Assembly: GCA_026398895.1 (NCBI GenBank)
Contig: JAPLRZ010000044.1
Coordinates: 1-64,000, forward strand
DNA length: 64,000 nucleotides
Direction: 5' to 3'
From: Methylococcales bacterium
GTDB taxonomy: Bacteria > Pseudomonadota > Gammaproteobacteria > Methylococcales > Methylomonadaceae
Part shown: positions 3,920 through 60,405 of the stretch, piece after piece
Layout of the letters: the number at the start of each line of letters is the position of its first letter
Position numbering within the stretch: position 1 is the stretch's first letter
The notes under the pieces: generated by a model
The model's input: the letters and a program-made list of their open reading frames with translations, nothing else
Databases searched by the model: none
What the model was told of the DNA's origin: nothing
Position numbers and translations under genes: made by a program

Positions 3920-4532
3920 AAAAAATCGGTACGGTGCTGTATTTACTCAAACCATAGCAGCTAAAACTTTTCTCGCTTGTCTCCGCTTGTTCAAGATGAC
4001 CTATGAATAAAGGGAAACGCTCACCAGAACTGCTACTTTTGACGTAAATAAAGGGCGCGTCGGTCAATTCTTCTTCACGCGAGGCAAAATGTTTCATGGC
4101 TTCATCAATGCTGATATTGAGTCGCCGACTTCTGCGATTACTCAACTGTTCGTTGTTATTTTGCGTTTGAATCCGAAAATAACAGCCGTACTTTTTCACT
4201 GTGTCAGGCACAGCTCGAATGCGGGTTAAATGCACATAATCACTAAGCGAATCAAACCAACGCTGCGCGTTAAATTGTTCTAGCTGTTGTTGTGTGGGCG
4301 CAAACACGCGTAATTGATGCCCTAGGTGATGCCTTTTTACGTTTTGACTGGGAAAAGAAATGCCTATTTTTGATACTTTAATCAGTTTTTTATTGCCTGA
4401 ATTATCAACAACTTCCTTTTTAATTGCTTGTTCAACCAATGCTAAATGCAGTTGTTGATAGACTTTTTCCCATAGGAAAAAAAGCGGTATCTCCTCATTC
4501 GGCAGTAAAGTCATTTCAAGATAGTATTTCAT
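3918..4532 (-). CDS. cas6f: Cas6f/Csy4 pre-crRNA endoribonuclease
   Basis: This 204-residue protein cuts the pre-crRNA within each repeat and stays bound to the 3' hairpin of the crRNA in the Csy complex. The sequence aligns by eye with Pseudomonas aeruginosa Csy4. QLHLALVE places a histidine at residue 29, the position of the known catalytic His29. The arginine-rich RNA-binding helix is present (SNRRSRRLNISIDEA, about residues 131-145), and the C-terminal block CYGLSK...VPIF is typical. Its start overlaps the csy3 stop as ATGA (4529-4532), indicating translational coupling. It is the last gene of the operon and the nearest to the array. Confidence 0.97.
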   Translation of the reverse strand: MKYYLEMTLLPNEEIPLFFLWEKVYQQLHLALVEQAIKKEVVDNSGNKKLIKVSKIGISFPSQNVKRHHLGHQLRVFAPTQQQLEQFNAQRWFDSLSDYVHLTRIRAVPDTVKKYGCYFRIQTQNNNEQLSNRRSRRLNISIDEAMKHFASREEELTDAPFIYVKSSSSGERFPLFIGHLEQAETSEKSFSCYGLSKYSTVPIF

Positions 4533-5635
4533 GAAGACTTCCCGCCAAATACACCTCCGCGTATCAGATTTCCTAGTACATAGTTTTTACTCTCATCGGT
4601 TAACTGGTCATTTCTATCATTGACCCAATGAAGCATCAAGCTATATAAATCTTCATCTTTATGTCGGAAAGCGCAACCACGTTGAGTGACAGAGCCGTAG
4701 GGTTCGATAGCGATAGGGAGTTTATCCTGTACATCTATTTGAACGGTGTCTGTAGCATCCTTGCCTTTGTCATTAATGGTCTTGATTAATACTTCAGTAT
4801 CATACCAATCATCAATCGTGCGTAGGGCATTACCAATTTTTACATTGTGCATTGCAGCACACTCATTTAATTTAAACAGTTTTTTTCCCTTCTCGTTCAT
4901 GTTCATTTCTTCTGACGGGAAAATATGTTGACCATTGCCTAGTTTTACATAAGCATCCACTTTAAAAAAAACAAAGTCTTGTTCGCTGTGATTAAGCCCT
5001 GTTAGAAAATGACTGACCAGTGTTTGTAAGTTTTCATTGGTACTGTTTTCATCAAAATTTTTTAATGAATATTTATAGGGTTTAAATTCCAATGGTGTTT
5101 TTTCTTCATTAATGAAAACATGAACGGTTATATCGCCTGCACATACTCGGTTACGCCATAAAAAGCGACCGTTGGCAATATTGTAAGCATAGCGATAGGC
5201 TAAGGTTTTTAATCCCTCTCCATTATTGCCTTTAAATTGATTAACACATTCTTTAATCTTTTTTTCAAAGTCTGGTTTATTACAAGCAAATGGAATACCT
5301 AAACCACCAATAACCCTTAAAGTGAAACTGACTTTTAGGGTATCTTTGTCTTGAGGTAATACAGCATCATCATTACCAGAAGATACTGGGTTTGGCTCTG
5401 TTTTTTTAGCATCGTCTATTCCATGCGCACTTTGGGTTGAACGATTAAATCGTGGTGTTATTTTGATGGGATTCCAAAGTGGAGCTTTTTTTTCTTTTTC
5501 ATCTTTTGGACGTGTTTCTTCTCCAAAATGAACAGGAATATCAGACCAGTTACCTGAATACATTAACGCATCAGATGTTTCTAGTTTACGTTCAAATGAA
5601 AGTAAGCTGGGTAATTCTATAGTGTTTTTAGCCAT
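4529..5635 (-). CDS. csy3: Csy3/Cas7f CRISPR backbone protein
   Basis: This 368-residue Cas7-type protein forms the six-subunit backbone that coats the crRNA spacer in the I-F Csy (Cascade) complex. The N-terminus (IELPSLLSFERKLETSDALMYS) and the central and C-terminal blocks (NGRFLWRNRVCAG, PIAIEPYGSVTQRGCAFR) are characteristic Csy3 motifs. It is somewhat longer than the P. aeruginosa protein (about 342 residues). AAGGA lies 9 nt before the ATG. It sits 29 nt after csy2 and overlaps cas6f by 4 nt. Confidence 0.96.
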   Translation of the reverse strand: MAKNTIELPSLLSFERKLETSDALMYSGNWSDIPVHFGEETRPKDEKEKKAPLWNPIKITPRFNRSTQSAHGIDDAKKTEPNPVSSGNDDAVLPQDKDTLKVSFTLRVIGGLGIPFACNKPDFEKKIKECVNQFKGNNGEGLKTLAYRYAYNIANGRFLWRNRVCAGDITVHVFINEEKTPLEFKPYKYSLKNFDENSTNENLQTLVSHFLTGLNHSEQDFVFFKVDAYVKLGNGQHIFPSEEMNMNEKGKKLFKLNECAAMHNVKIGNALRTIDDWYDTEVLIKTINDKGKDATDTVQIDVQDKLPIAIEPYGSVTQRGCAFRHKDEDLYSLMLHWVNDRNDQLTDESKNYVLGNLIRGGVFGGKSS

Positions 5636-5664
5636 TGTTGATTCCTTGTGTTTAAATAGTGATA

Positions 5665-6846
5665 TTAGTATGAATAAGTATTATTGTCTTGAGGTTGTTG
5701 AATATAAGCTCCTTGTTTGCATAGATACCAGTTTTTTTCATAATGATAATGCCAAATGCAATTAGATATTTCTTCAATATCTTTTAAGCGATGCACACTT
5801 TGCCATTTACCAATACTATGAACAGATTCAACAAAAGTAACTTTAGTTACATCGTCATCTGTTTCTTTTGCCCTGATGTTTTCTACTTCGCATTTTTCAT
5901 ATTCATCTGAAATAGCTTTATAACCCACCATAATAGGTACTAAATAGCCATTTTTTGGTTTTTCAATATATTCCCAATCTGCATTGGTTTTTTCATCGGG
6001 AGAACAATAATTTTGCCATTGAGTTAATAATGCGGCATTGGTTTTATTGTTTTCTAATTGATTAAAATAATCGCTTAATTCTGTTGGAGTAATACCCACT
6101 TGATAAGGTGTTTCTAAATGTTCTTGCCATGTCTTTATTAAGTGGCTATATTGATTTTCAGTCGGATTACTTTTATTCAATTTTTTAAAATGTTTGCTGA
6201 TTAAATCCGATGTTGGACGTGCTTTTTGTTTGAGAGCAATAAAATCTAACCATACGTCTAGTAATTCTACATTTTCATTGTCTTTAGATAATGCTTGATA
6301 GTGTTCTTCCAGATAACTAGAGCTGTCTCTTAATATGAATCCTGGTATTAATTTGCCTTTAATTATTCTGAGTGCCTTGTCATCCAATATATCAATACTG
6401 TGAATATCAAGAATCGTTCCACCAGCCAATCTTTGTAAAAAACAGGATTTTTTAAGCCACATATTAAAATCTTCACTCGAATTACCACCAATATGCCCTT
6501 TATATTCTATGAGTAAAGAAACCGTCATATTCATTTTACCTTCTTCAATCACAGGCGGAGTATTTACTTTATTTTTTGATTCTTCACCATGTTGATAAGC
6601 TGGATTTCTGCTTTGGGTAAATTCATATTCACCATAGTTACTATAAGTATGCACATGATGTTCATGCGCAATGACAGCACAACCCGATAAATAAATATCG
6701 TTAAAATCATCAGTATTGGCTAATTTACGCGATAGATTGTGAGTAAAACCTAGAAAATGAGTAATAGCAGGAAACCCCCAAGTAAAGCCAGCAATTGCAT
6801 TGGCATTTTGTACTTTTATGCGGTTAATCAGAATGTATTGATTCAT
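5665..6846 (-). CDS. csy2: Csy2/Cas5f CRISPR complex subunit
   Basis: This 393-residue Cas5f-type subunit pairs with Csy1 to form the tail that holds the 5' handle of the crRNA. The N-terminus YILINRIKVQNANAIAG followed by TWGFPAITHFLGFTHNL is the family signature, and GGTILDIHSI is another conserved block. It is longer than the P. aeruginosa homologue (about 327 residues), with extra sequence in the middle and C-terminal third. The start overlaps the csy1 stop as ATGA (6843-6846). Confidence 0.93.
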   Translation of the reverse strand: MNQYILINRIKVQNANAIAGFTWGFPAITHFLGFTHNLSRKLANTDDFNDIYLSGCAVIAHEHHVHTYSNYGEYEFTQSRNPAYQHGEESKNKVNTPPVIEEGKMNMTVSLLIEYKGHIGGNSSEDFNMWLKKSCFLQRLAGGTILDIHSIDILDDKALRIIKGKLIPGFILRDSSSYLEEHYQALSKDNENVELLDVWLDFIALKQKARPTSDLISKHFKKLNKSNPTENQYSHLIKTWQEHLETPYQVGITPTELSDYFNQLENNKTNAALLTQWQNYCSPDEKTNADWEYIEKPKNGYLVPIMVGYKAISDEYEKCEVENIRAKETDDDVTKVTFVESVHSIGKWQSVHRLKDIEEISNCIWHYHYEKNWYLCKQGAYIQQPQDNNTYSY

Positions 6847-8369
6847 GCTGTTTCCTTTTGAATGTTGTATTGCATTTGGGCATCAATGGTTTCGCAATCT
6901 TCTCGAAGTGGATTTTCAAATAATGTTATCCACATACGAGTATGTTCAGCTTGTGGTGTAAATTGTTTTTCTTTACCCGCTAATTTGTTGTTTAACCAAC
7001 TGGCAAAATCTTTGCAAACTATGCCTTGCCAATCGTTAGCTTTACGTTGGTTTTGAAAGTTTTCTTCATCTCGGAATGGATCAAGAAAATACTGATGTGC
7101 TGGTTTTAATTTGATGTCTTCGTTAGCTGACCAACCCGATGGTAGTTTTTGAATACTATTTGCATAAAATAAAACTTCATCAATAATGCTGTTGACCCAG
7201 CGTTCTAAGTGAGCATATCGTTTAGGGTCTTTAATACTCAAATCAATACGTTCAAAACGAAGTAAGAAATCACGCAAATAATCAATATCTTCCTTAATGT
7301 CACTATTAGAAAAGTTGTCAAATAATGACTTTTTATAAACAGGTGGTTTTAATTGAGTTTTCCAAGTGGGGGGCTGAGTCGAAAATAAAAATAGCTTTCC
7401 GCCTCTTTTACCATTTAGCTGTGAAGCATTAATATGATTACTCTTGGTAACACTTAATTTAGCTTTTTTAATAAAGGCAACGGTAGTTATTTCAGAATAT
7501 TTGTTTTTTTCTTTTAAGCTCTTATACTTTTTTTGTTCGTCATCAGATATTTTTTCAAAAACCGCTTGAGCCAAAGATGAAGATTTAAGATGACAAAGCA
7601 AATGATATGAAGTCGGTTCAAGTGTAAATGTATTTTCTACTGGATAATAAATTTGTTTTGCCAGACTATGACTGCTTTTTTCTTTAGAAGATAGAGCTTG
7701 ATTAAAACCAGTATTCCACTGAGTAAGTTGCTCATTGTTTTCAGAAAAACTATCGAGAATTACGTTGTTTGTATCCGCAAATTTTGAGGCTAATTTTTCG
7801 CCGTTGAATTCGAGTTCAAGAAATTGAAATATAGGTGCATATTGAGCACCACTCACCGCACCATCAACTACTTTTTCTTTTAAGAATGACGTTGTTAAAT
7901 AACTATATTTTATATCGTCTATTTTATCATATAAAGAAGGGCTAGTAATACTAGAGTGTGTTAGTTTAATTACATGAGTTGCTAAACTAACACTGGACGC
8001 TTTTTTTGAGCTATTTTCCAACCATAGATTAGGATTAAATTTTTCGTTTATTTTTTTTATTTCTAAACGATAGTTGCTTATTAACTTTTTGAAATCAATA
8101 TTTTCAGGTTTGTTTTTTAGTCTTAATATTTTCAAAGACTTCTCTCTTTGGAACGCAATATCTGTTTGTTCTTTTGTTTTTTGGTTTTTTTTGGTATCAA
8201 AAAAAGACTCTAATTCTGAATCATCAAAATAATCTATTTTCGCATACTGTTCAGCTATCTTTTTGATTTCTGCTTTCAAATATGTAATTCCCTCTACTTC
8301 TTTTTTTTGTTCAAAGAAGTTTTTAATTACATCTTCCCATGATTCAAATTTTCTAATATTGATTGTCAT
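6843..8369 (-). CDS. csy1: Csy1/Cas8f large subunit of the I-F complex
   Basis: This 508-residue protein is the Cas8f-like large subunit, which in the family recognises the GG PAM and recruits Cas2/3. It is assigned from its place in the operon between cas2-3 and csy2 and from Csy1-like blocks: THVIKLTHSSITSPSLYD with SVSLATH, and KLFLFSTQPPTWKTQLKPP near the middle. It is lysine-rich and longer than the P. aeruginosa protein (about 434 residues), mainly at the N-terminus. It overlaps cas2-3 by 17 nt and csy2 by 4 nt, so all four genes are tightly coupled. Csy1 is the most diverged subunit in this family, hence slightly lower confidence. Confidence 0.92.
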   Translation of the reverse strand: MTINIRKFESWEDVIKNFFEQKKEVEGITYLKAEIKKIAEQYAKIDYFDDSELESFFDTKKNQKTKEQTDIAFQREKSLKILRLKNKPENIDFKKLISNYRLEIKKINEKFNPNLWLENSSKKASSVSLATHVIKLTHSSITSPSLYDKIDDIKYSYLTTSFLKEKVVDGAVSGAQYAPIFQFLELEFNGEKLASKFADTNNVILDSFSENNEQLTQWNTGFNQALSSKEKSSHSLAKQIYYPVENTFTLEPTSYHLLCHLKSSSLAQAVFEKISDDEQKKYKSLKEKNKYSEITTVAFIKKAKLSVTKSNHINASQLNGKRGGKLFLFSTQPPTWKTQLKPPVYKKSLFDNFSNSDIKEDIDYLRDFLLRFERIDLSIKDPKRYAHLERWVNSIIDEVLFYANSIQKLPSGWSANEDIKLKPAHQYFLDPFRDEENFQNQRKANDWQGIVCKDFASWLNNKLAGKEKQFTPQAEHTRMWITLFENPLREDCETIDAQMQYNIQKETA

Positions 8370-11300
8370 CTTTATTTCCTATTTCTTGGTATAGTCCCAA
8401 ATTTTCATGGTAGTTGTATTGTTCAATTTTATTGTCGTCATATTCAACTAATCGCACTTCACCAAAACGATGACTAATTGTTAATAAATCATCATGAAAG
8501 TCTTTTGCTAATGCTGAATAAATTTTTTCAGCATTCAAATTAAACCAGAAAAAACTATTTTTACCTAATTCAATTTCTATATTATTATTGATTGTTATAC
8601 CGACTAATTCACCAAACTTAGGTGGTGAAACATTTTCATTTTTCCATTGCCAATAAGTGTTTGAATTTTCATCTTTCAGACAAAGATAATAGGCTTCATC
8701 TTTTTTAGATTGTCTAAAGCGTTGTTGTCTTTGCACTTCTCCGCACCAGTGAGGATGATTTTTCCACCATATCTTTGCACCATCATTATTGGAAAATAGT
8801 TTAAAGTTAAGTGCCTCGTGTTCTAATTCAACTAAATTTGAATAGGTGCGCTCAGTATTTTTTTTAGGTTCAATGATTCTTTGAATTGAATTAATTTCTT
8901 CATATTGTTCTTTATTTAAAATTTCATTCAAATCGTATGAAGCAATGGGTTTTAATTGTCTTGATTCAAAACCTGGTTTTTCAAAGCAAGGTTTTTTATT
9001 TTTAAGTGCTTTATAATTTTTATTTAATAACAGAATATTTGGTGTTTCAGGTATATCTTTACGATGCCTTAGCACTCGACCTGCTAATTGAATAATAGAG
9101 CGCATGGAGCTAGGCTCAACAATTGCCCAATCATAATCATGATCTCTACCGACTTCTGCTACGGGCGATGCAATAATAACAAATATATGATTATTTTGTG
9201 GATATTTTTGTAGTTTTTCTGCTATCTCGTTATGTTGCCAAATATCGTTTATATTTTTTCGATTAAGAATTTTGTCTAATTTATTTTCTAAATAGGAACG
9301 TACTGCTAGTGGATAACGACTGTGATAAACGCAATAATGAATACAAGTATCTTCGGGCGCATCAAGTTTTAATAATGTTTTAGCTACTGTAACTAAAGGA
9401 TTAATATTTGCCATACGAACTAAACCAACAGAAATGTTTTTATTATTCTGTGTTTGGTAATGCTCTTTATGTAATTTTTCTATATGCGTATGTATCACTT
9501 TCGCTATATTGAAAATAACGGTTTCGCCTTTGTGTTGTTCAATATTGATTACGATGGCTTTTCGTTGGGGTTTGCTGTGTGTATTAATCGACTTTATACG
9601 ACTTTGAATAAACTTTTCGTGTGATGCTTTGAAAGTATTAAAATCTTTATGCTGTTCAGGCTGATGATTTTTATCAAATTCATCAAACCAAGCACAGGCA
9701 ATTTCTCCATTCCAATTATTAATATTGGCTTTAGCATATTCTGCCCAGCCCTGTTGATAAGCCTGAAAAAGAGCATAAACTAAAGCAGGTGGCATGGTGG
9801 CAGTGGATAATAAAACACGGCTTCCTGATAATCCCGTCCAATGCACTAATCGACACAATGCAGGTAAATCTTCAAGACCAAAATCATCGGGTTCATCCAA
9901 TATTAAATCTGACGTTAATAAGCGCAACATAGCTGGAATATGTTTACCGCCTTTGGTGGCTTCTGTTGCGGGCATGAGATGGTCAATAGTACACACTAAA
10001 ACGGGCGCGTGTATCAGTTTATTTAGTTGAATATTATTTTTAGTCCAACTGCTAAGGCTGTGTTCATAAGTATCTGCTGCGTAATCCACATACAAATCAG
10101 CATCTAAAAATTCTTCTTGTGATGCACTGCCTGTTTCTGTTTGTTCAGGTTGAATTGAAAATTGATTTTTTTGTTCAAATAATTGTTTAACAGCATCGCC
10201 ACCTACCGCAATCGCGAGGTCTTTGTTGCTCAGTTTCAATTCATTTCTGTAGGCTAACCCTGTTTGTAAAGTTAATGTTCTTAAACCTAATGCAACACTA
10301 AACCTAATTCTTCCTGCTGCACTGCCTAGTGCGTACATTATTTTTGCATTAGCCAGTGTTTTTCCCTTACCTGTAGAAGCCATGTTGATGCCAAAAAATC
10401 CGTGTTCAAGCGTTGTTTTTCCTATTTCTTTGGCGAGTTTTTTTGCATCATCTTGCCAACCAAAATCATCTTTATATTCTTTTTTTACATTGCCAGTTAG
10501 AGCTGAGTTTCCCTTAAGCGGTTTTAAACTTGCATTGAGTTTAGGTAAGGCTTTAGCGATTTTTTGGGCATGATGGGCAACACCGATAAGATGTTCATCA
10601 AGCTTTTGCTTAAACTGTCCTGCTTTTGCATGGCTTCTACCATAGGTATTTGCATAAACTTCATAATTTGGGTTGCGCCATTCCTCAGTTACCTCATCTA
10701 ATGAAGAGTAATAATGGTCAGCCAAAATCAAACAAAGCCGAGAGAAATGTGTTGTAAAAAGTTGATTATTTAGCCAATCAGTATCCTGTTGTTTCAAAAC
10801 CAGTGGTAATTTTGCTTTTGCTTCTGAGGATAACAAGCAAGCTTTTGAACGCCATTGCATACTTGCCACAGGCAATGATTTAAACTCCCAATTCTTTTCT
10901 ATCAGGGCTTTTTGATCTTGATCTTTGCAGTTATGGGAATTCCAAATGGCATTAAATTCATTTTTTGTAATCCATTTATCTACATATTCTAAAGTTAAAG
11001 CAGGTTTCGGCGGCTTATTTTCAAACTCTTTCCAATCTGGAAATAAAGGCAATTTATGATGTGAAAGAATTAACCAAGCAATCAATTTGGCAAATGGTGG
11101 TAACTTTTCAAGAGGATGATTGTTTTTAACCTCTCCATCTAAGCCATCTTTAAAATAGTTAGAAAACTCATTACTCTCAATCTGACTTAAAGCAATCAAC
11201 CACTGTTCATCATTTTTATCATCACCTACAAATGCTTGAAATAGTCGAAGTGATACCCATTCATGGCGGTAAGGTTCGTATCTTAAACCATGATAATTTG

Positions 11301-54197: not shown

Positions 54198-55463
54198 ATG
54201 AAAATTTTATTACGCATTTTTCTGTTATTGCTGTGCGCATTGATACTGCTTTGTGTCATGCTGGTTATTTTTGGTGTCAGTGACACGCCAGAAATTGAAT
54301 TAAGTTGGTCGCTGACGCGAGATGATATTATTAGAGCCAAAAAAATTCTTCATGAAGGGGCTGAAAGCAAGCCCGATGAAATTGCTATCATTGAGTTAAG
54401 TCATGCCGACCTTAATCTTGCCGCTAATTATTTATTAAATCGCTACAGCAAAAGCGCGGTGCAAATATCGCTGAAAAAAAATAAACTAAAATTTGTGGTG
54501 ACCACCACCTTACCCGAAAATCGGCTAGGTAAATACTTAAATATCACCTTTAGATTAGGCAATGAAGAAGGTGAATCTTTGCCTACGATTACCAAATTTA
54601 AAGCAGGAAGTTTATTAATTCCTGCCAAAATAGCGGGCATTATTATCAATGCTATTATTCAGCACAGTTCGTTAAATAACTATTTCATTCTAGCAACTAG
54701 CCCGATAAGAGGCGTTAAAATTGAATCAGATAAAATAATCATTAGTTATTTTTCTAACTTAGAAACCCTAATACATACGCGCAACGTATTAACGCGTACC
54801 GATAACAGTCCCGCTCTAAAAATTTATCAACAAAAAATTGCCGACATTATCGCTCATCATGATCCTGCGTGGCGTTTGTCTCTAGCAGATTTATTAAAAC
54901 CATTGTTTGAAATCGCTTATCAACGTTCGACGCTTGACAATGCTATTGATGAAAACAGGTTAGTCATTATGTCGGTCAACGACTATGTCAATAAAAAAGA
55001 GACCAAACCGTTTTTGTCATCAGAAAAACCACCTCAAGGCAAACAATATGTAGCTTTTTTATACAAACGTAGCGATTTAGCGCAGCATTTTATTGGTTCA
55101 GCGGCATTGACCACATCGGTTGATGATGAAGTTGCCAAAGTTGTTGGCGAAGAAAAAGAATTAAGCGATGCCCAAGAGGGAGGAAGTGGCTTTAGTTTTA
55201 TCGACTTAGCTGCCGATAAAGCAGGTACACGGTTTGGTGAAATAGCGACCGCAAGCCCTGAAAGCGCACGCCAGTTACAACTTGCTATGACAAAAATAAA
55301 AGATTACACCGATTTTATGCCCAACCCTACGGATTTACCTGAAAAAATGAATGCAGCCGATTTTAAAAATCGCTATGGATCAATCAACAGTAAAGCTTAT
55401 CAGGAATTATCGAACAAAATTGATGCGCGTATTGAAAAAATACCGCTTTATAAGGTGAACTAA
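54198..55463 (+). CDS. Unknown membrane-tethered protein coupled to ppx
   Basis: This 421-residue protein has one N-terminal hydrophobic segment (LRIFLLLLCALILLCVMLVI), so most of it should be periplasmic. I do not recognise the family. The first half alternates strands and helices (IELSHADLNLAANYLLNRYS; VKIESDKIIISYFSNLETL), like a lipid-binding or scaffold fold. The second half has GGSGFSFIDLAADKAGTRFG (about 330-350) and ends with a helical, Asp/Pro-containing segment. There is no lipobox. Lying 9 nt after ppx, it may serve in polyphosphate storage or envelope work, but this rests only on position. Confidence 0.7.
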   Translation: MKILLRIFLLLLCALILLCVMLVIFGVSDTPEIELSWSLTRDDIIRAKKILHEGAESKPDEIAIIELSHADLNLAANYLLNRYSKSAVQISLKKNKLKFVVTTTLPENRLGKYLNITFRLGNEEGESLPTITKFKAGSLLIPAKIAGIIINAIIQHSSLNNYFILATSPIRGVKIESDKIIISYFSNLETLIHTRNVLTRTDNSPALKIYQQKIADIIAHHDPAWRLSLADLLKPLFEIAYQRSTLDNAIDENRLVIMSVNDYVNKKETKPFLSSEKPPQGKQYVAFLYKRSDLAQHFIGSAALTTSVDDEVAKVVGEEKELSDAQEGGSGFSFIDLAADKAGTRFGEIATASPESARQLQLAMTKIKDYTDFMPNPTDLPEKMNAADFKNRYGSINSKAYQELSNKIDARIEKIPLYKVN

Positions 55464-55553
55464 ATAACTGTTTTGCATATCCGTTTCTCATGGGTTGATA
55501 ATCCCAAACGAAAATCATGAATTAATGTGTAAACGTTCCGCAGCTCCACGCAA

Positions 55554-55769
55554 TCAAGCCGCTTCTTGTTCTAAAACAGGGCTATGATGCAATAACAATA
55601 ATTTATCGGCAGATAAGGTTTTTAAAGCGAAGGTTTGACCTTTTATATCACAAAATTCTACTTCAAAAACATCGGGTTCATAGACCTCAACAATTGTTCC
55701 GACTTGCCCTTTAACTAAGCCGCTATTAGGGATAGTTTCTAATAAGGCGACAGCATCTAATAATTTCAT
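55554..55769 (-). CDS. DUF4926 domain protein
   Basis: This 71-residue protein starts at ATG 55769, with GAGG 6 nt upstream; the frame open to 55886 runs through a repeat element and is not used. KLLDAVALLETIPNSGLVKG then QVGTIVEVYEPDVFEVEF is the DUF4926 pattern of a small beta-barrel. Such proteins often pair with a small partner gene and behave like antitoxins or immunity proteins; here no partner is adjacent. The function is unknown. Confidence 0.75.
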   Translation of the reverse strand: MKLLDAVALLETIPNSGLVKGQVGTIVEVYEPDVFEVEFCDIKGQTFALKTLSADKLLLLHHSPVLEQEAA

Positions 55770-55794
55770 TTTAACCTCACAAAATATAACAGTG

Positions 55795-55879
55795 CCATAG
55801 GATGTGCCGACGATAGGAGGCGCATCATTCGCGTCAAGTTTCTCGAACGATGCGCTTCGTACCTCAGCACATCCTATGG
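55795..55879. repeat. MITE-like element upstream of the DUF4926 gene
   Basis: The 85-bp element has perfect 13-bp ends CCATAGGATGTGC and GCACATCCTATGG, and inner arms GCGCATCATTCG / CGAACGATGCGC. It fills the promoter region of the DUF4926 gene, 26 bp from its ATG. It is unrelated in sequence to the GGTAGTGGG family. Confidence 0.85.
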
Positions 55880-56040
55880 TTAGCACACCTTATCGCGTTA
55901 ATTGAGACATAGTCATTCCTTATGGGGATTTATATTATTTTTTGGGTTGCCAAAAAGCGGCTACCTATCCTACGATTACCCATCTTACGGGTTAAAAACG
56001 AGGCGGCATATTTCAAATCCACGTCTCGTTTCACATCAAA

Positions 56041-59000
56041 TTAAAAACTATCCAGCCACTCATTATTAAAGTTGAAATACAACAATTTTGGTTCTGTATC
56101 ATTGATACCAGCAACAAAAATTAAATGTGTATCGCGCCCCCAACTGGTTGCTGCGTTGAATTGATTGCTACTCATAAAAAACCTCAAATCATTGCCTATA
56201 TTGACTGATTCAGTAGTTGTCTTGACTTCTATGAAATGAATTTTATCTTTAATTCTTAGTTCAATATCAATTCCTTTGCTTTCAACATCAGAATTATTCC
56301 AAGTAACATTTTTAGCACCGTATTTATCGGAAAGGACTTTGTAAACATATAGCTCACCTTTTCGACCTATCAAAGCATTATCTTCACTGTAATCATTACT
56401 TTTCGATAACTGAGCATGAATAGATTCATTTTCACTTGCTATAAAAGAATTTGTAAATTCTTGTTTTTCTTTGTCACTTTCATCAACCAGCTCCAATTCA
56501 GACGGAACGAAATTCAAATCAAAAATATCTAAATAAATAATATTTTTTGATTCTATATCTTTTAATAATCTTGACTGAAAGTGTTTATTTTTACAGGCGA
56601 GTTGCTTGGCAGTAATGTAGAAATCCCAGCTACATTCTCTTATTTGAAAAGTACTGTTACTCAAGAGAACGGGTAAAAAAGAAAAATAGTGAAAACCTCC
56701 TTCATCCAAATCTAACCTTTCAAATAAACGTTTTAGATTCCGAAAGGAAATATCTTGCTCATCTATTGTGTAAACATCATTCCTTTTTGATAAAAATTCA
56801 ATTGTAGAGATGATTTTTTCATGCGAAAATCCAGCCAAATCATCTCGTTTTAATTCTTCACGACTTATTATTTTTTGTCTAATTGTGGGCAACATCTCAT
56901 CCACATTTAAACCGAATTTACGATAAGTTTTTAGATAATTATTATTTTCTTCTTTTTGGAAAAATTCTGGGAGTTTTTCTTGTTCAATAGCTACATCAGA
57001 ATCCAATAGATAGCATTCCTGATTAAGGTATTTCGGAAAGAAATCAACAGCCTTAAACAAAAGAACAGCCTCAGAATAATCAGATAATTTGTTAAATAAA
57101 TCGCCTACTATTTTACAGCTACGCTCTTGGTCATCTTTCTCATTTTTCCTGTCCCAAAATAAAAATCCATTTTTAAAATCTTTTTTAAGTAAGTTTTCAT
57201 TTTTTTCTAGCGAATAAAAAACAATAAATTTCAATTTTTCTTCATCACCTATTTTGCGTTCTCCATTACGCAAATAAACATAAATTTCGCTGTATAAAGC
57301 CTCTTTGTTTTCTTCTTGAAAATTGAAAATCAGTTTTTCTAATTTATCCATATCAGAAGTTGAAAATGAACGTAATATGTTACCAACATCCACATTCTGA
57401 TGATTTTTGTATTTTCGATGATTAATTTTCTTTAACGCAATTTTTCCATATTTAAAACTCACACTATCACTTATAAGTGAATTACCTATCCTTTTTCCAT
57501 CGACATAAATTTTTGTTCTAAATTCTTTTATAAACGCATCGTCATTGTTCAAAATTAGACTAATGACTTTGTATTCGTAATCTTCCTTTTGATATTGCTC
57601 ATTAAATAAATCTAAACGAGTTAAACTATTTAAGAAATACTCCCGTAATTCTTTTTTGTCATCAACAATAAAATCAATCAGTTCTTGATGTTTCTTACTA
57701 TCAATAAGTTTCTTTTTTATCTCTTCATCGAAAGGACGTAAATCCAGAAAACTCAAAACTGTTTTCTCAAACGGTTCTGGAATAAGAGCGAGATTACCAA
57801 AATTACCAAGTACATCAAAAAAATCATGTAGTTCCAAAAAAGCCTTAAATGCTTTATTTTCTATATGTATATGCTTTGATTTAGCATCAATTATATATTT
57901 ATCGCCTTCTTGCCTAATAGCGAAATCCTTTATTTTTATTTCAGGACTCTTGAAAATATTCAAAATCACATGAACATCTTCACCACTATACTCATCGGTA
58001 AAATAGGTAGAATTTACTTCTGGTTTTTTTAAAAAACTTAATAATTTAGGATATTCTGATACATCGGCAAAGGTAAAATGAAAGCCAAATTGACTAGCAA
58101 GTATATTTTCTAATTGTGACCCAAAATAACCTTTGTAGAAAAATTTACTAGATTTGTCTATTTCATTGATACTTTTAAAATCGCCATTACTAAAGCTGAA
58201 TATCTTTTTATTTGCAATAGCTTTAATACTTTCATTTAAATTTTTAGCAGAGTTTATTTCGTTAAAAAATGTCAAATAATCATTTGATGATAATGTTTTA
58301 ATCCAATCTTCTATATCATCATCTCGCAGAGCGTCAATGATATTCCATTCTTTAATATTTAATTTATATTTAGCTTTTTGTATTATTTCTTCCTCCTCAA
58401 AATCAAAAAACTTTTTATTTTTTTTCAGCTTAACGTCCAACCTACTGCGCATTATTTTGACGTTATACGCATCACTAACAAACCCAGAATAAGCAGTTGG
58501 TATATTCTTTTTGATATAAGCTAAAAGATAATTTGTTAAATGTGTTTTTATAAAAGGAGCATTTCCTGCTGTTTCTAAATCAGACAAATACAAATTAACT
58601 AAAATTGTTCTGTAACATTCTTCGTTTTCATTTTTTACTTTCTCAAATTCTGTTATTAAATCATTGGCAATTTTATTGAGTAGTTCTGAATTTGTTTTAT
58701 CCAATTCTCTTCTGTTTAATTGAATTTCAAAGTTTTCACTATGAATCATGAAATTTAAATTATTATTTTGATTTCCCATTGGGAAATACTTGAAAAATGA
58801 AATTTTTTCTTCTTTTGGTTTTCTGAAAAAAGTTAATGCCTCCTTTATAAATTTTGGATACATGAAAATGTAATGTTCACCAGAAATTACAGCCATATTT
58901 TCGTCACAAATTACCTCCATATTATTTATAACAACTCGGTTAAGTTGCGTATTTTTTTGAATTGATTTAATAAAATTAATAGAATGCGATACACCATGTT

Positions 59001-59790
59001 TGATGGTATTTTCTTCCTCTTTTAAAAGCTCGTATTTTCCCTTACCGAGTTCTAAAAAAAATAAACTACCTTCTTTTAAATCAACCTGATTACTATTTAA
59101 AGAATTCCTAATAAAACCAATCACTCTATCTAATTCATCTTGAGAAAAAGGCGTTATTTCTTCGCAATTCACGCCTACGCCTTTTACTACGCCTTTTACC
59201 GTCTCACCGACCCCACAAGGAAAATTTGTGTACAAAATTTTAAATAGCCAATGATTGTCAATATTATCAGTTAATTCATTCTTTAAAAAATCATCGAGAT
59301 AATTGTCATCCCAAGAAAAAAGTATTGGACCGCAATATCGTTCAATTTCTTTTAATCCATTACTTTCACCGATCAATCTGTGAATTAACTTAAACCCGAC
59401 TCCAAACTTTCCAATAGTTGATGAGCTACTTTCTTTTGTACTTTGTGAAACATTTAAAATAGATTCAATACCTTTTTCTTGAAATTTCTTACCATTATTG
59501 ATGACCAAAAAATATTTTTCATCGTAGAAAATAAAAAATTCACTTGCGCTAGCATCGACAGCATTTTGTAAAAATTCATATATTGCTTGCCCATCTCCAG
59601 CTATTTGAACTGACGAATTTATAAAACCAATTTCACTTGGTTTATGAGCGTGATACAACTCAAAAAATCCTTTTTTTATTATTTCTTGATTACAATCTTT
59701 TTGATAACAACCTATAAAGTCCAAATCTCTTAATTTGTCGGTATCTTTTTTAGAATTTGCGAAATACTTTCTATAATCTTTTGCTTTCAT
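56041..59790 (-). CDS. GHKL (sacsin-type) ATPase with C-terminal DUF3883 nuclease-like domain
   Basis: This 1249-residue protein starts at ATG 59790, with AGGA 11 nt upstream; the frame open to 59868 adds residues reaching into a divergent gene. An N-terminal Hsp90-like ATPase (about 45-200) has the N-box YEFLQNAVDASA (about 70-81), the D/N-G box FLVINNGKKF and the lid STIGKFGVGFK (about 124-134), as in sacsin-like proteins. About 900 residues of Lys/Asn/Glu-rich helical sequence follow, with no motif I know. The end (about 1125-1249) is DUF3883: GRKGELYVYKVLSDKYG, then GIDIELRIKDKIHFIEVKTT, which gives the D...E-x-K of a PD-(D/E)xK nuclease. This architecture is typical of stand-alone phage-defence proteins. 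AT content and codon use look higher than the neighbours, suggesting transfer. Confidence 0.85.
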   Translation of the reverse strand: MKAKDYRKYFANSKKDTDKLRDLDFIGCYQKDCNQEIIKKGFFELYHAHKPSEIGFINSSVQIAGDGQAIYEFLQNAVDASASEFFIFYDEKYFLVINNGKKFQEKGIESILNVSQSTKESSSSTIGKFGVGFKLIHRLIGESNGLKEIERYCGPILFSWDDNYLDDFLKNELTDNIDNHWLFKILYTNFPCGVGETVKGVVKGVGVNCEEITPFSQDELDRVIGFIRNSLNSNQVDLKEGSLFFLELGKGKYELLKEEENTIKHGVSHSINFIKSIQKNTQLNRVVINNMEVICDENMAVISGEHYIFMYPKFIKEALTFFRKPKEEKISFFKYFPMGNQNNNLNFMIHSENFEIQLNRRELDKTNSELLNKIANDLITEFEKVKNENEECYRTILVNLYLSDLETAGNAPFIKTHLTNYLLAYIKKNIPTAYSGFVSDAYNVKIMRSRLDVKLKKNKKFFDFEEEEIIQKAKYKLNIKEWNIIDALRDDDIEDWIKTLSSNDYLTFFNEINSAKNLNESIKAIANKKIFSFSNGDFKSINEIDKSSKFFYKGYFGSQLENILASQFGFHFTFADVSEYPKLLSFLKKPEVNSTYFTDEYSGEDVHVILNIFKSPEIKIKDFAIRQEGDKYIIDAKSKHIHIENKAFKAFLELHDFFDVLGNFGNLALIPEPFEKTVLSFLDLRPFDEEIKKKLIDSKKHQELIDFIVDDKKELREYFLNSLTRLDLFNEQYQKEDYEYKVISLILNNDDAFIKEFRTKIYVDGKRIGNSLISDSVSFKYGKIALKKINHRKYKNHQNVDVGNILRSFSTSDMDKLEKLIFNFQEENKEALYSEIYVYLRNGERKIGDEEKLKFIVFYSLEKNENLLKKDFKNGFLFWDRKNEKDDQERSCKIVGDLFNKLSDYSEAVLLFKAVDFFPKYLNQECYLLDSDVAIEQEKLPEFFQKEENNNYLKTYRKFGLNVDEMLPTIRQKIISREELKRDDLAGFSHEKIISTIEFLSKRNDVYTIDEQDISFRNLKRLFERLDLDEGGFHYFSFLPVLLSNSTFQIRECSWDFYITAKQLACKNKHFQSRLLKDIESKNIIYLDIFDLNFVPSELELVDESDKEKQEFTNSFIASENESIHAQLSKSNDYSEDNALIGRKGELYVYKVLSDKYGAKNVTWNNSDVESKGIDIELRIKDKIHFIEVKTTTESVNIGNDLRFFMSSNQFNAATSWGRDTHLIFVAGINDTEPKLLYFNFNNEWLDSF

Positions 59791-59823
59791 AGCTATCAGT
59801 CCTGTAGATTGGAATAAGTCTGT

Positions 59824-60213
59824 TTGCGCGTAAGCGAAAACAGGCGTTTCCAACAAAATATTCTGCACAATACCACACTTTGTCAGAAATACCCGCCCTG
59901 CGCTACTGCTTGGGTTGGCTTTCGTGATAATTTGCTTTATGTAACACTCACGCTGTTTGGTGGCATAGTTGCTTATGCTGTTTCAGGAACAAATTTTCTT
60001 GCTTTGCTTATTTTGCCTTGGGTTTGTTTAATCATGGGGTGGACGTATTTGGTGAATGATGAAAAAATTTTGGCATTGGGGCAATATGTGCGCGATAAGC
60101 TTTCTAATGGATTGGCTAAGGCGTTGGGTATTGATGAAAATACCGCTGAAATGGCATGGATTTTTGGCTGGGAAACTGCGCACCGTAGTGATAAATGCAG
60201 GGTAGTGGGTTAA
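59824..60213 (+). pseudogene. Truncated membrane-protein gene, stop codon supplied by a MITE
   Basis: The conserved-looking part begins near 59920 (FRDNLLYVTLTLFGGIVAY) and continues LLILPWVCLIMGWTYLVNDE, KILALGQYVRDKLSNGLAKA and FGWETAHRSDK. It has two membrane helices and the W-T-Y-L-x-N-D-E-K pattern of a small multi-helix family of unknown function. The first 30 or so codons (from 59824) read as low-quality sequence without helix or motif. The final codons CRVVG-stop lie in a repeat element (60201-60313). Both ends thus appear lost. It overlaps, head to head, the alternative start of the GHKL gene. It may still make a shortened protein. Confidence 0.55.
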
Positions 60214-60313
60214 ACCTGTATTTCAATGACCTATCTGATTACGTCTAAGTCTTGTGTATTCTGGAGTACAAACCTAGGTTTGTATTCCGCACTTACAGAT
60301 TTAACCCACCACC
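60201..60313. repeat. MITE-like element D
   Basis: The left end GGTAGTGGGTTAAACCTGTA and right end ACAGATTTAACCCACCACC are inverted, 113 bp in all. The internal palindrome GGAGTACAAACC-TAGGTTTGTATTCC-type (60262-60288) differs from that of element C. The left end contributes the stop codon (TAA, 60211-60213) to the preceding membrane-protein gene. Confidence 0.85.
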
Positions 60314-60342
60314 GTTACACGATATTCGCCCGTTAAATAAAA

Positions 60343-60375: not shown

Positions 60376-60405
60376 AAGCCGTGCGAGTGGTGTCTAATTT
60401 AGAGA

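Follow-up and report, generated by a model that had tools for sequence, protein, structure and literature searches.

The window considered here, a stretch of 64,000 nucleotides from a Methylococcales bacterium (contig JAPLRZ010000044.1 of assembly GCA_026398895.1), carries a single large gene that is predicted to encode a compact member of Tiamat, a known single-gene phage-defence system whose protein is TmtA. The frame of this tmtA-like gene runs uninterrupted from an ATG at 59790 to a stop codon at 56041-56043 (1249 codons plus the stop), and a GTG at 59868 in the same frame would lengthen the protein by 26 residues. An earlier note, made from the letters alone, had described a giant gene at 56041-59790, an AT-rich composition and a stand-alone position among housekeeping genes, and these descriptions hold. 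The guanine-plus-cytosine (GC) content of the gene is 0.285, with 0.218 at third codon positions (GC3), compared with 0.40 in the flanks and a GC3 of 0.33-0.39 in seven neighbouring genes. Conserved housekeeping genes surround the lone gene in the window, and the insert of ~4.87 kb that contains it is absent from four congeners.

Both ends of the protein carry recognisable domains. At the N-terminus, Pfam SACS matches residues 67-138 (34.4 bits; cut-off 32.8), HATPase_c_3 matches within the same interval (27.3 bits; cut-off 25), and the NCBIfam model for the sacsin N-terminal ATP-binding domain, P_loop_sacsin (NF047352), scores 69.5 bits against a cut-off of 50. At the C-terminus, NOV_C (PF13020), which we take to be the family formerly called DUF3883, matches residues 1145-1238 (36.6 bits; cut-off 22.1). 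The earlier note's combination of a sacsin-type GHKL ATPase and a PD-(D/E)xK-like C-terminus in one chain is borne out by these matches and by signature residues that are kept in relatives. The GHKL motifs are intact, with E72, N76, D79, N98, G100, G127, G130, G132 and K134 invariant in 20 of 20 aligned rows, and the nuclease signature of E1146, D1175, an acid at 1188 (E in the window protein) and K1190 is kept in all nine aligned ends. R360 of an LNRREL motif does not vary across 17 rows, nor across 9 rows taken from more distant ATPase relatives; by likeness it may correspond to R380 of Hsp90, which contacts the gamma phosphate according to the available part of PMC12280139, and would then be the gamma-phosphate arginine.

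Table. Features of the tmtA-like gene and the insert that carries it (window coordinates).
Feature	Position	Strand	Basis
tmtA-like gene, predicted compact Tiamat protein, 1249 aa	56041..59790	-	intact open reading frame (ORF); PADLOC TmtA PDLC03970, 550.6 bits; full-length relative L072; relative L074, truncated at its contig end
GHKL (sacsin/Hsp90-type) ATPase core, residues ~60-160	59311..59613	-	Pfam SACS/HATPase_c_3, NF047352; N-box E72..N76..D79, N98-G100, G127-K-F-G-V-G-F-K134
Hsp90-like middle region, residues ~190-490, with R360 in LNRREL motif	58321..59223	-	Foldseek/VIA Hsp90 matches over model residues ~32-490
Middle and C-terminal linker, residues ~491-1135	56386..58320	-	PDLC03970 stretch 826-1282; without ~220 residues of long TmtA
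PD-(D/E)xK (NOV_C/DUF3883) domain, residues 1136-1249	56044..56385	-	Pfam NOV_C; E1146, D1175, E1188-V-K1190; Hjc/SPARDA nuclease fold match
Accessory insert with tmtA-like gene, ~4.87 kb	55468..60332		flanks adjoin without it in G258, G226, G271 and G124; ends uncertain by a few bases
Small DUF4926 ORF in insert	55554..55886	-	Pfam 78.1 bits; ATG at 55772 likelier start; 95-96% DNA match elsewhere in G124, G130 and G118
Dispersed repeat at 5' edge of tmtA	59794..59976		copies in G000:C29 (92-94%), in G130, G271 and G118 (82-85%) and others
20-bp inverted repeats 73 bp apart, remnant like a miniature inverted-repeat transposable element (MITE)	60201..60313

The PADLOC profile PDLC03970 for TmtA matches the window protein with an E value of 2.7e-165 (550.6 bits). 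The match is collinear, running over profile positions 1-610 and then 826-1282 of 1552, and these two listed stretches cover ~69% of the profile positions, a figure to which PADLOC's own coverage rules were not applied. The second stretch runs through the middle region of ~900 residues that the earlier note had called unclassified and had proposed to search against defence-system profiles. The middle is therefore not unclassified and a named system exists, and the reading of the gene as an unnamed system was rejected on the same match. Tiamat is a single-gene system, and the only gene partners inside the insert are the DUF4926 ORF and a repeat-derived ORF, so the gene stands alone as Tiamat genes do. 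TmtA was reportedly tested experimentally by Millman in 2022. The window protein shares with the PDLC03970 family a single large chain with an N-terminal GHKL ATPase, and its PD-(D/E)xK end is also present in several long relatives. It differs in length, with 1249 residues against 1573-1783 in most complete relatives and ~220 residues missing after residue 587. In the accessible portions of two papers the mechanism of Tiamat is listed as unknown (PMC12926258, PMC10482375), the latter also placing actinobacterial Tiamat nearly always on the chromosome, and the accessible portion of a third describes a concentration of Tiamat in a Pseudomonas island hotspot (PMC12629846).

Searches with the window protein alone gave zero relatives in the genome-contig and viral-contig collections, probably because the chosen peptides are not conserved. 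A hand-made degenerate pattern for the region of the second ATP-binding motif, F-G-[IV]-G-F-K-L-[IV]-H-R, found 21 genome loci, all of which encode relatives of the window protein by blastp. Most of their hosts belong to the Bacteroidota; two are cyanobacteria, one is a member of the Campylobacteraceae and a few belong elsewhere. Closest to the window protein are L072, from a metagenome-assembled genome labelled Bacteroidaceae (35.7% over 1282 columns), and L074, from the Campylobacteraceae member (44% over 843 columns), whose protein is truncated by the end of its contig. A maximum-likelihood tree built from the first ~600 residues places these two and the window protein on one side of a branch with support 100/100, and the block of ~220 residues is missing from all three, residues 587/600 of the window protein facing 631/852 of L076. 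Complete single-chain pattern relatives outside this compact clade contain 1573-1783 residues, with the exception of L070 (1227). Two of these genomes contain a second copy, of 1878 residues in L138 (Aureispira) and of 1652 in L141, and the chains of G1099 and G760 have 1941 and 2339, counted from stop to stop. The cyanobacterial L063 and L079 are split, with first parts of 1138 and 1144 residues. Cyanobacterial TmtA is thus seen as two reading frames, adjacent or separate (L063 1353-7128, minus strand; L079/L135), the second of which ends in DarT.

The subfamily is rare. PDLC03970 is matched at E 0.001 in 25 of 237 genomes of the family, where among the matches listed those outside the window cover only the ATPase side or short stretches. 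In the order, 18 of 301 genomes have matches, all of them confined to the ATPase side except in the window's own genome. In the phylum, 11 of 398 genomes match PDLC03970, and the listed matches other than the window's own likewise cover only the ATPase side or short stretches. In the phylum of G722 (a Runella limosa record) 43 of 395 genomes match, four of them beyond E 1e-100, including G722 and G714.

The C-terminal end of TmtA is exchanged among relatives. Twenty ends were examined: L135, L168 and L169, together with 17 (including the window protein, the second copies L138 and L141, and the second ORF of L063) that were tested with a hidden Markov model built from the nuclease ends of five seeds (the window protein, L072, L076, L073 and L078). 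Left out of the count were L061, L071 and L074 (contig ends), L064 and L081 (broken frames) and the first copy of L077, and L079 was counted only via its second part, L135, which lies on another contig and was not joined. PD-(D/E)xK ends occur in 9 of the 17, comprising the five seeds and four hits at 1.6e-7 or better (L065, L080, L068 and L075); the end of L141 scores weakly (1.2e-6). Pfam recognises DarT at the end of the L063 second ORF (84 bits), L135 (83.6 bits) and L169 (75.4 bits, in the same chain as the TmtA core), and a superfamily 1 (SF1) helicase is fused to L067 (AAA_12, 79.8 bits) and L168 (77.5 bits, same chain). The tally for all 20 is nine clear PD-(D/E)xK, three DarT and two fused SF1 helicase ends, while L062, L066, L069, L070 and L138 have no module assignment and L141 is weak. 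For L062, an SF1 helicase is encoded by the next gene. In L169, the ORF directly after the TmtA-DarT chain (4198-5532, minus strand) starts with a macro domain, continues with the N-terminal domain of HsdM and is truncated; the macro domain is the antidote fold of DarG. The C-terminal end is therefore swapped among enzymes acting on DNA or RNA, once with an antidote-like neighbour, as an effector slot predicts. There is about an even chance that TmtA is a modular immune platform, in which a sacsin/Hsp90-type ATP clamp would serve as a general infection sensor for exchangeable C-terminal nucleic-acid effectors (PD-(D/E)xK nuclease, DarT thymidine ADP-ribosyltransferase or SF1 helicase) and of which the window protein would be the minimal nuclease-armed form.

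Structure models support a sacsin/Hsp90-like clamp and an Hjc/SPARDA-like nuclease fold. For residues 1-600, AlphaFold2 gives a predicted local distance difference test (pLDDT) score of 79 and a predicted template-modelling score (pTM) of 0.70, with residues 116-133 at a pLDDT under 50. Foldseek aligns this model with Hsp90 chains (E 3.3e-9), the template-modelling score (TM-score) for the model as a whole being only 0.37, and VIA aligns it with sacsin SR1 (Z 11.8), with a root-mean-square deviation (rmsd) of 4.0 across 175 residues and of 2.8 across 162. Despite the Hsp90-like fold, the Pfam HSP90 profile has no match in the window protein at E 1, and a plain Hsp90 chaperone (HtpG) was rejected on this ground. 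The elements of the C-terminal model fit the alpha-beta-beta-beta-alpha-beta nuclease fold, and VIA places its last 116 residues (model 575-690) on the nuclease subunit of SPARDA at Z 9.5 and on Hjc resolvase at Z 9.3, where 93 residues align with an rmsd of 2.9. Hjc, SwaI and HincII are among the further Foldseek matches, amid unrelated helical-repeat chains. No solved structure was a convincing match to a profile built from the nuclease ends.

In the four congeners that lack the insert (G258, G226, G271 and G124), sequence to ~55467 runs straight into ~60333-60336, although in G226 the right flank resumes at 60405, after 36 unrelated bases. The flanks adjoin without the insert and therefore mark an empty site. 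The sequence AAATAA is present at both 55462-55467 and 60335-60340 and may be a short target duplication or chance. In G130, the closest relative genome, the two flanks lie on separate contigs, with a transposase fragment, presumably IS1-like, near the right one. The tmtA-like DNA was not found in the 30 related genomes searched, in which only the repeats and the DUF4926 piece matched. The gene was evidently acquired recently and horizontally, as single-gene cargo. Prophage cargo was rejected, as Pfam shows no phage gene among the insert ORFs, PHROGs not having been searched. The "decayed membrane-protein gene" of the earlier note has to be corrected, since that interval (59824-60213) overlaps the dispersed repeat at 59794-59976, which begins 4 bp ahead of the tmtA start codon. 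Other copies of this repeat (L165 in G000:C29 and L166 in G130:C172) lie near the same conserved gene, which looks like serine acetyltransferase, with different ORFs alongside. This arrangement suggests a repeat-linked exchange of cargo near a conserved gene in two genomes. The insert also contains an inverted-repeat element (CCATAGGATGTGC... at 55795-55879) with many copies in its own and related genomes.

The 81 ORFs examined as genomic context of the relatives flank 20 of the 21 pattern loci. At 1e-10, the PADLOC models matched by these neighbours include PglX/type IIG, PDC-S11, PDC-S45, DRT, DarT and DrmD. PglX/type IIG and PDC-S11 adjoin L067, DRT RT_UG19 adjoins L080, a helicase with a Mokosh match adjoins L062, and an SNF2 helicase with a DrmD match adjoins L077. 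The homologue neighbourhoods that the earlier note wished to see are thus suggestive of a defence role in part, with defence genes beside at least these four loci, and most of the listed neighbours are ordinary genes.

The best explanation, which we consider reasonably probable, is that the window gene encodes a horizontally acquired compact TmtA phage-defence protein whose ATP clamp licenses a C-terminal nuclease, and the earlier note's idea of an ATP-gated nuclease stands as a working hypothesis. Sequence and models show the domains, the conserved motifs, membership of the family by profile, the history of the insert and the swapping of the C-terminal module in relatives; from these we infer for the window protein ATP gating, dimerisation, a trigger, a substrate and a function in defence. 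Together, the N-terminal sacsin/Hsp90-type GHKL domain and the middle domain would make up a clamp, probably dimeric and operated by ATP, that would sense either a product of the phage or nucleic acid that the phage has altered. As it closes in an ATP-dependent way, the clamp would position and release the C-terminal PD-(D/E)xK nuclease, which would then cut DNA, either that of the phage or that of the host as abortive infection. In favour of this reading, DUF3883 has been termed "a novel REase domain" (restriction endonuclease; PMC3710099), and VcSduA, compared below, offers an analogy.

Several observations weigh against this explanation. A single PADLOC cluster underlies the family name, since the matches of the other TmtA profiles to the window protein lie mostly around the ATPase, and we know of no phage assay of the compact clade. 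The neighbours of the insert in the window are housekeeping genes and form no defence island. Seven of the 17 tested ends have no PD-(D/E)xK match (L141 being weak), so the nuclease is not universal. The model of residues 560-1249 (pLDDT 75) has a pTM of 0.44 and gives nothing under 0.001 by Foldseek, the best match being SPARDA at E 0.065. With Foldseek weak and VIA giving a match, the nuclease call rests jointly on Pfam, the signature and this second-look fold match. The Pfam families of the neighbouring ORFs, as far as listed (25 of 94), belong mostly to ordinary metabolism, and the association of TmtA relatives with defence genes is only suggestive because the background rate of defence neighbours was not measured. 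The degenerate pattern found 0 loci in viral contigs, and tblastn at E 1e-5 found no relative in the phage and plasmid collections.

A restriction-like, modification-sensing nuclease is an unlikely alternative, in which the middle would read DNA marks directly and ATP would merely power the enzyme, with no phage-protein trigger. The macro-HsdM_N ORF beside one relative and the PglX/type IIG gene beside another would suit such an enzyme, as would the presumptive placing of DUF3883 among type II REase groups (PMC10609329). However, the insert is without a methyltransferase or modification gene, and Pfam recognises no DNA-reading domain in the middle. It is improbable that the protein is a sacsin/Hsp90-like chaperone or protein-quality-control factor with a PD-(D/E)xK-like end that only binds nucleic acid or is structural. 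The top N-terminal fold neighbours are indeed sacsin SR1 and Hsp90, and L062 and L066 have similar ends in which no acid-x-K is recognisable by eye. However, the catalytic residues are kept throughout the aligned nuclease-type ends, and replacement by DarT or helicase, patchy presence and a single-gene insert are more in keeping with conflict systems than with housekeeping. A decaying, non-functional acquired gene, as its setting among dispersed repeats and a MITE-like remnant might suggest, is very improbable given 1249 codons with no stop or frameshift and intact motifs at both ends.

Read as a compact TmtA, the window protein can be compared with other proteins. Plant NO VEIN, a nuclear developmental factor, has a sacsin-like ATPase; it shares the family of its C-terminal domain, Pfam NOV_C, with the window protein, but beyond this domain orthology is unsupported. 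DarTG toxin-antitoxin systems have their DarT in common with the ends of three TmtA relatives, one of which is followed by a macro-domain ORF, but DarT is absent from the window protein itself. VcSduA, a Shedu protein of paraMORC3 type, is likewise a single chain that begins with a GHKL ATPase and ends with a PD-(D/E)xK nuclease, and E27A and K557A each abolish its defence (PMC12137116, available part). In the same text, however, its nuclease is DUF4263 rather than NOV_C and its ATPase is not described as sacsin type, and, with the nuclease lysine at K557, it is apparently far shorter. In the window protein, neither DUF4263 nor SduA is matched at E 1 by Pfam or PADLOC. Shedu membership was therefore rejected, and VcSduA is an analogue of the window protein, not a family member.

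As a shorter TmtA that bears a nuclease and has clear catalytic residues at its two ends, the window protein offers direct mutants for the unexplained mechanism of Tiamat, and the relatives ending in DarT or helicase offer domain swaps that ask whether sensing lies with the Hsp90-like clamp and attack with the C-terminus. If true, this would be a prokaryotic case tying sacsin-type ATPases to immunity. What gives the finding wider interest is the exchangeable effector end, a modularity that was the unexpected result.

Among the relatives, the macro-HsdM_N ORF of L169 is an unusual join of antidote and methyltransferase. L168 (4230-13335, minus strand) encodes a TmtA-SF1 helicase chain of 2339 residues; next to it are a gene for a TatD-type DNase and an ORF that matches QueC below threshold. 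In the window itself, a second AT-rich stretch is present at 4001-11000 (GC 0.28-0.39).

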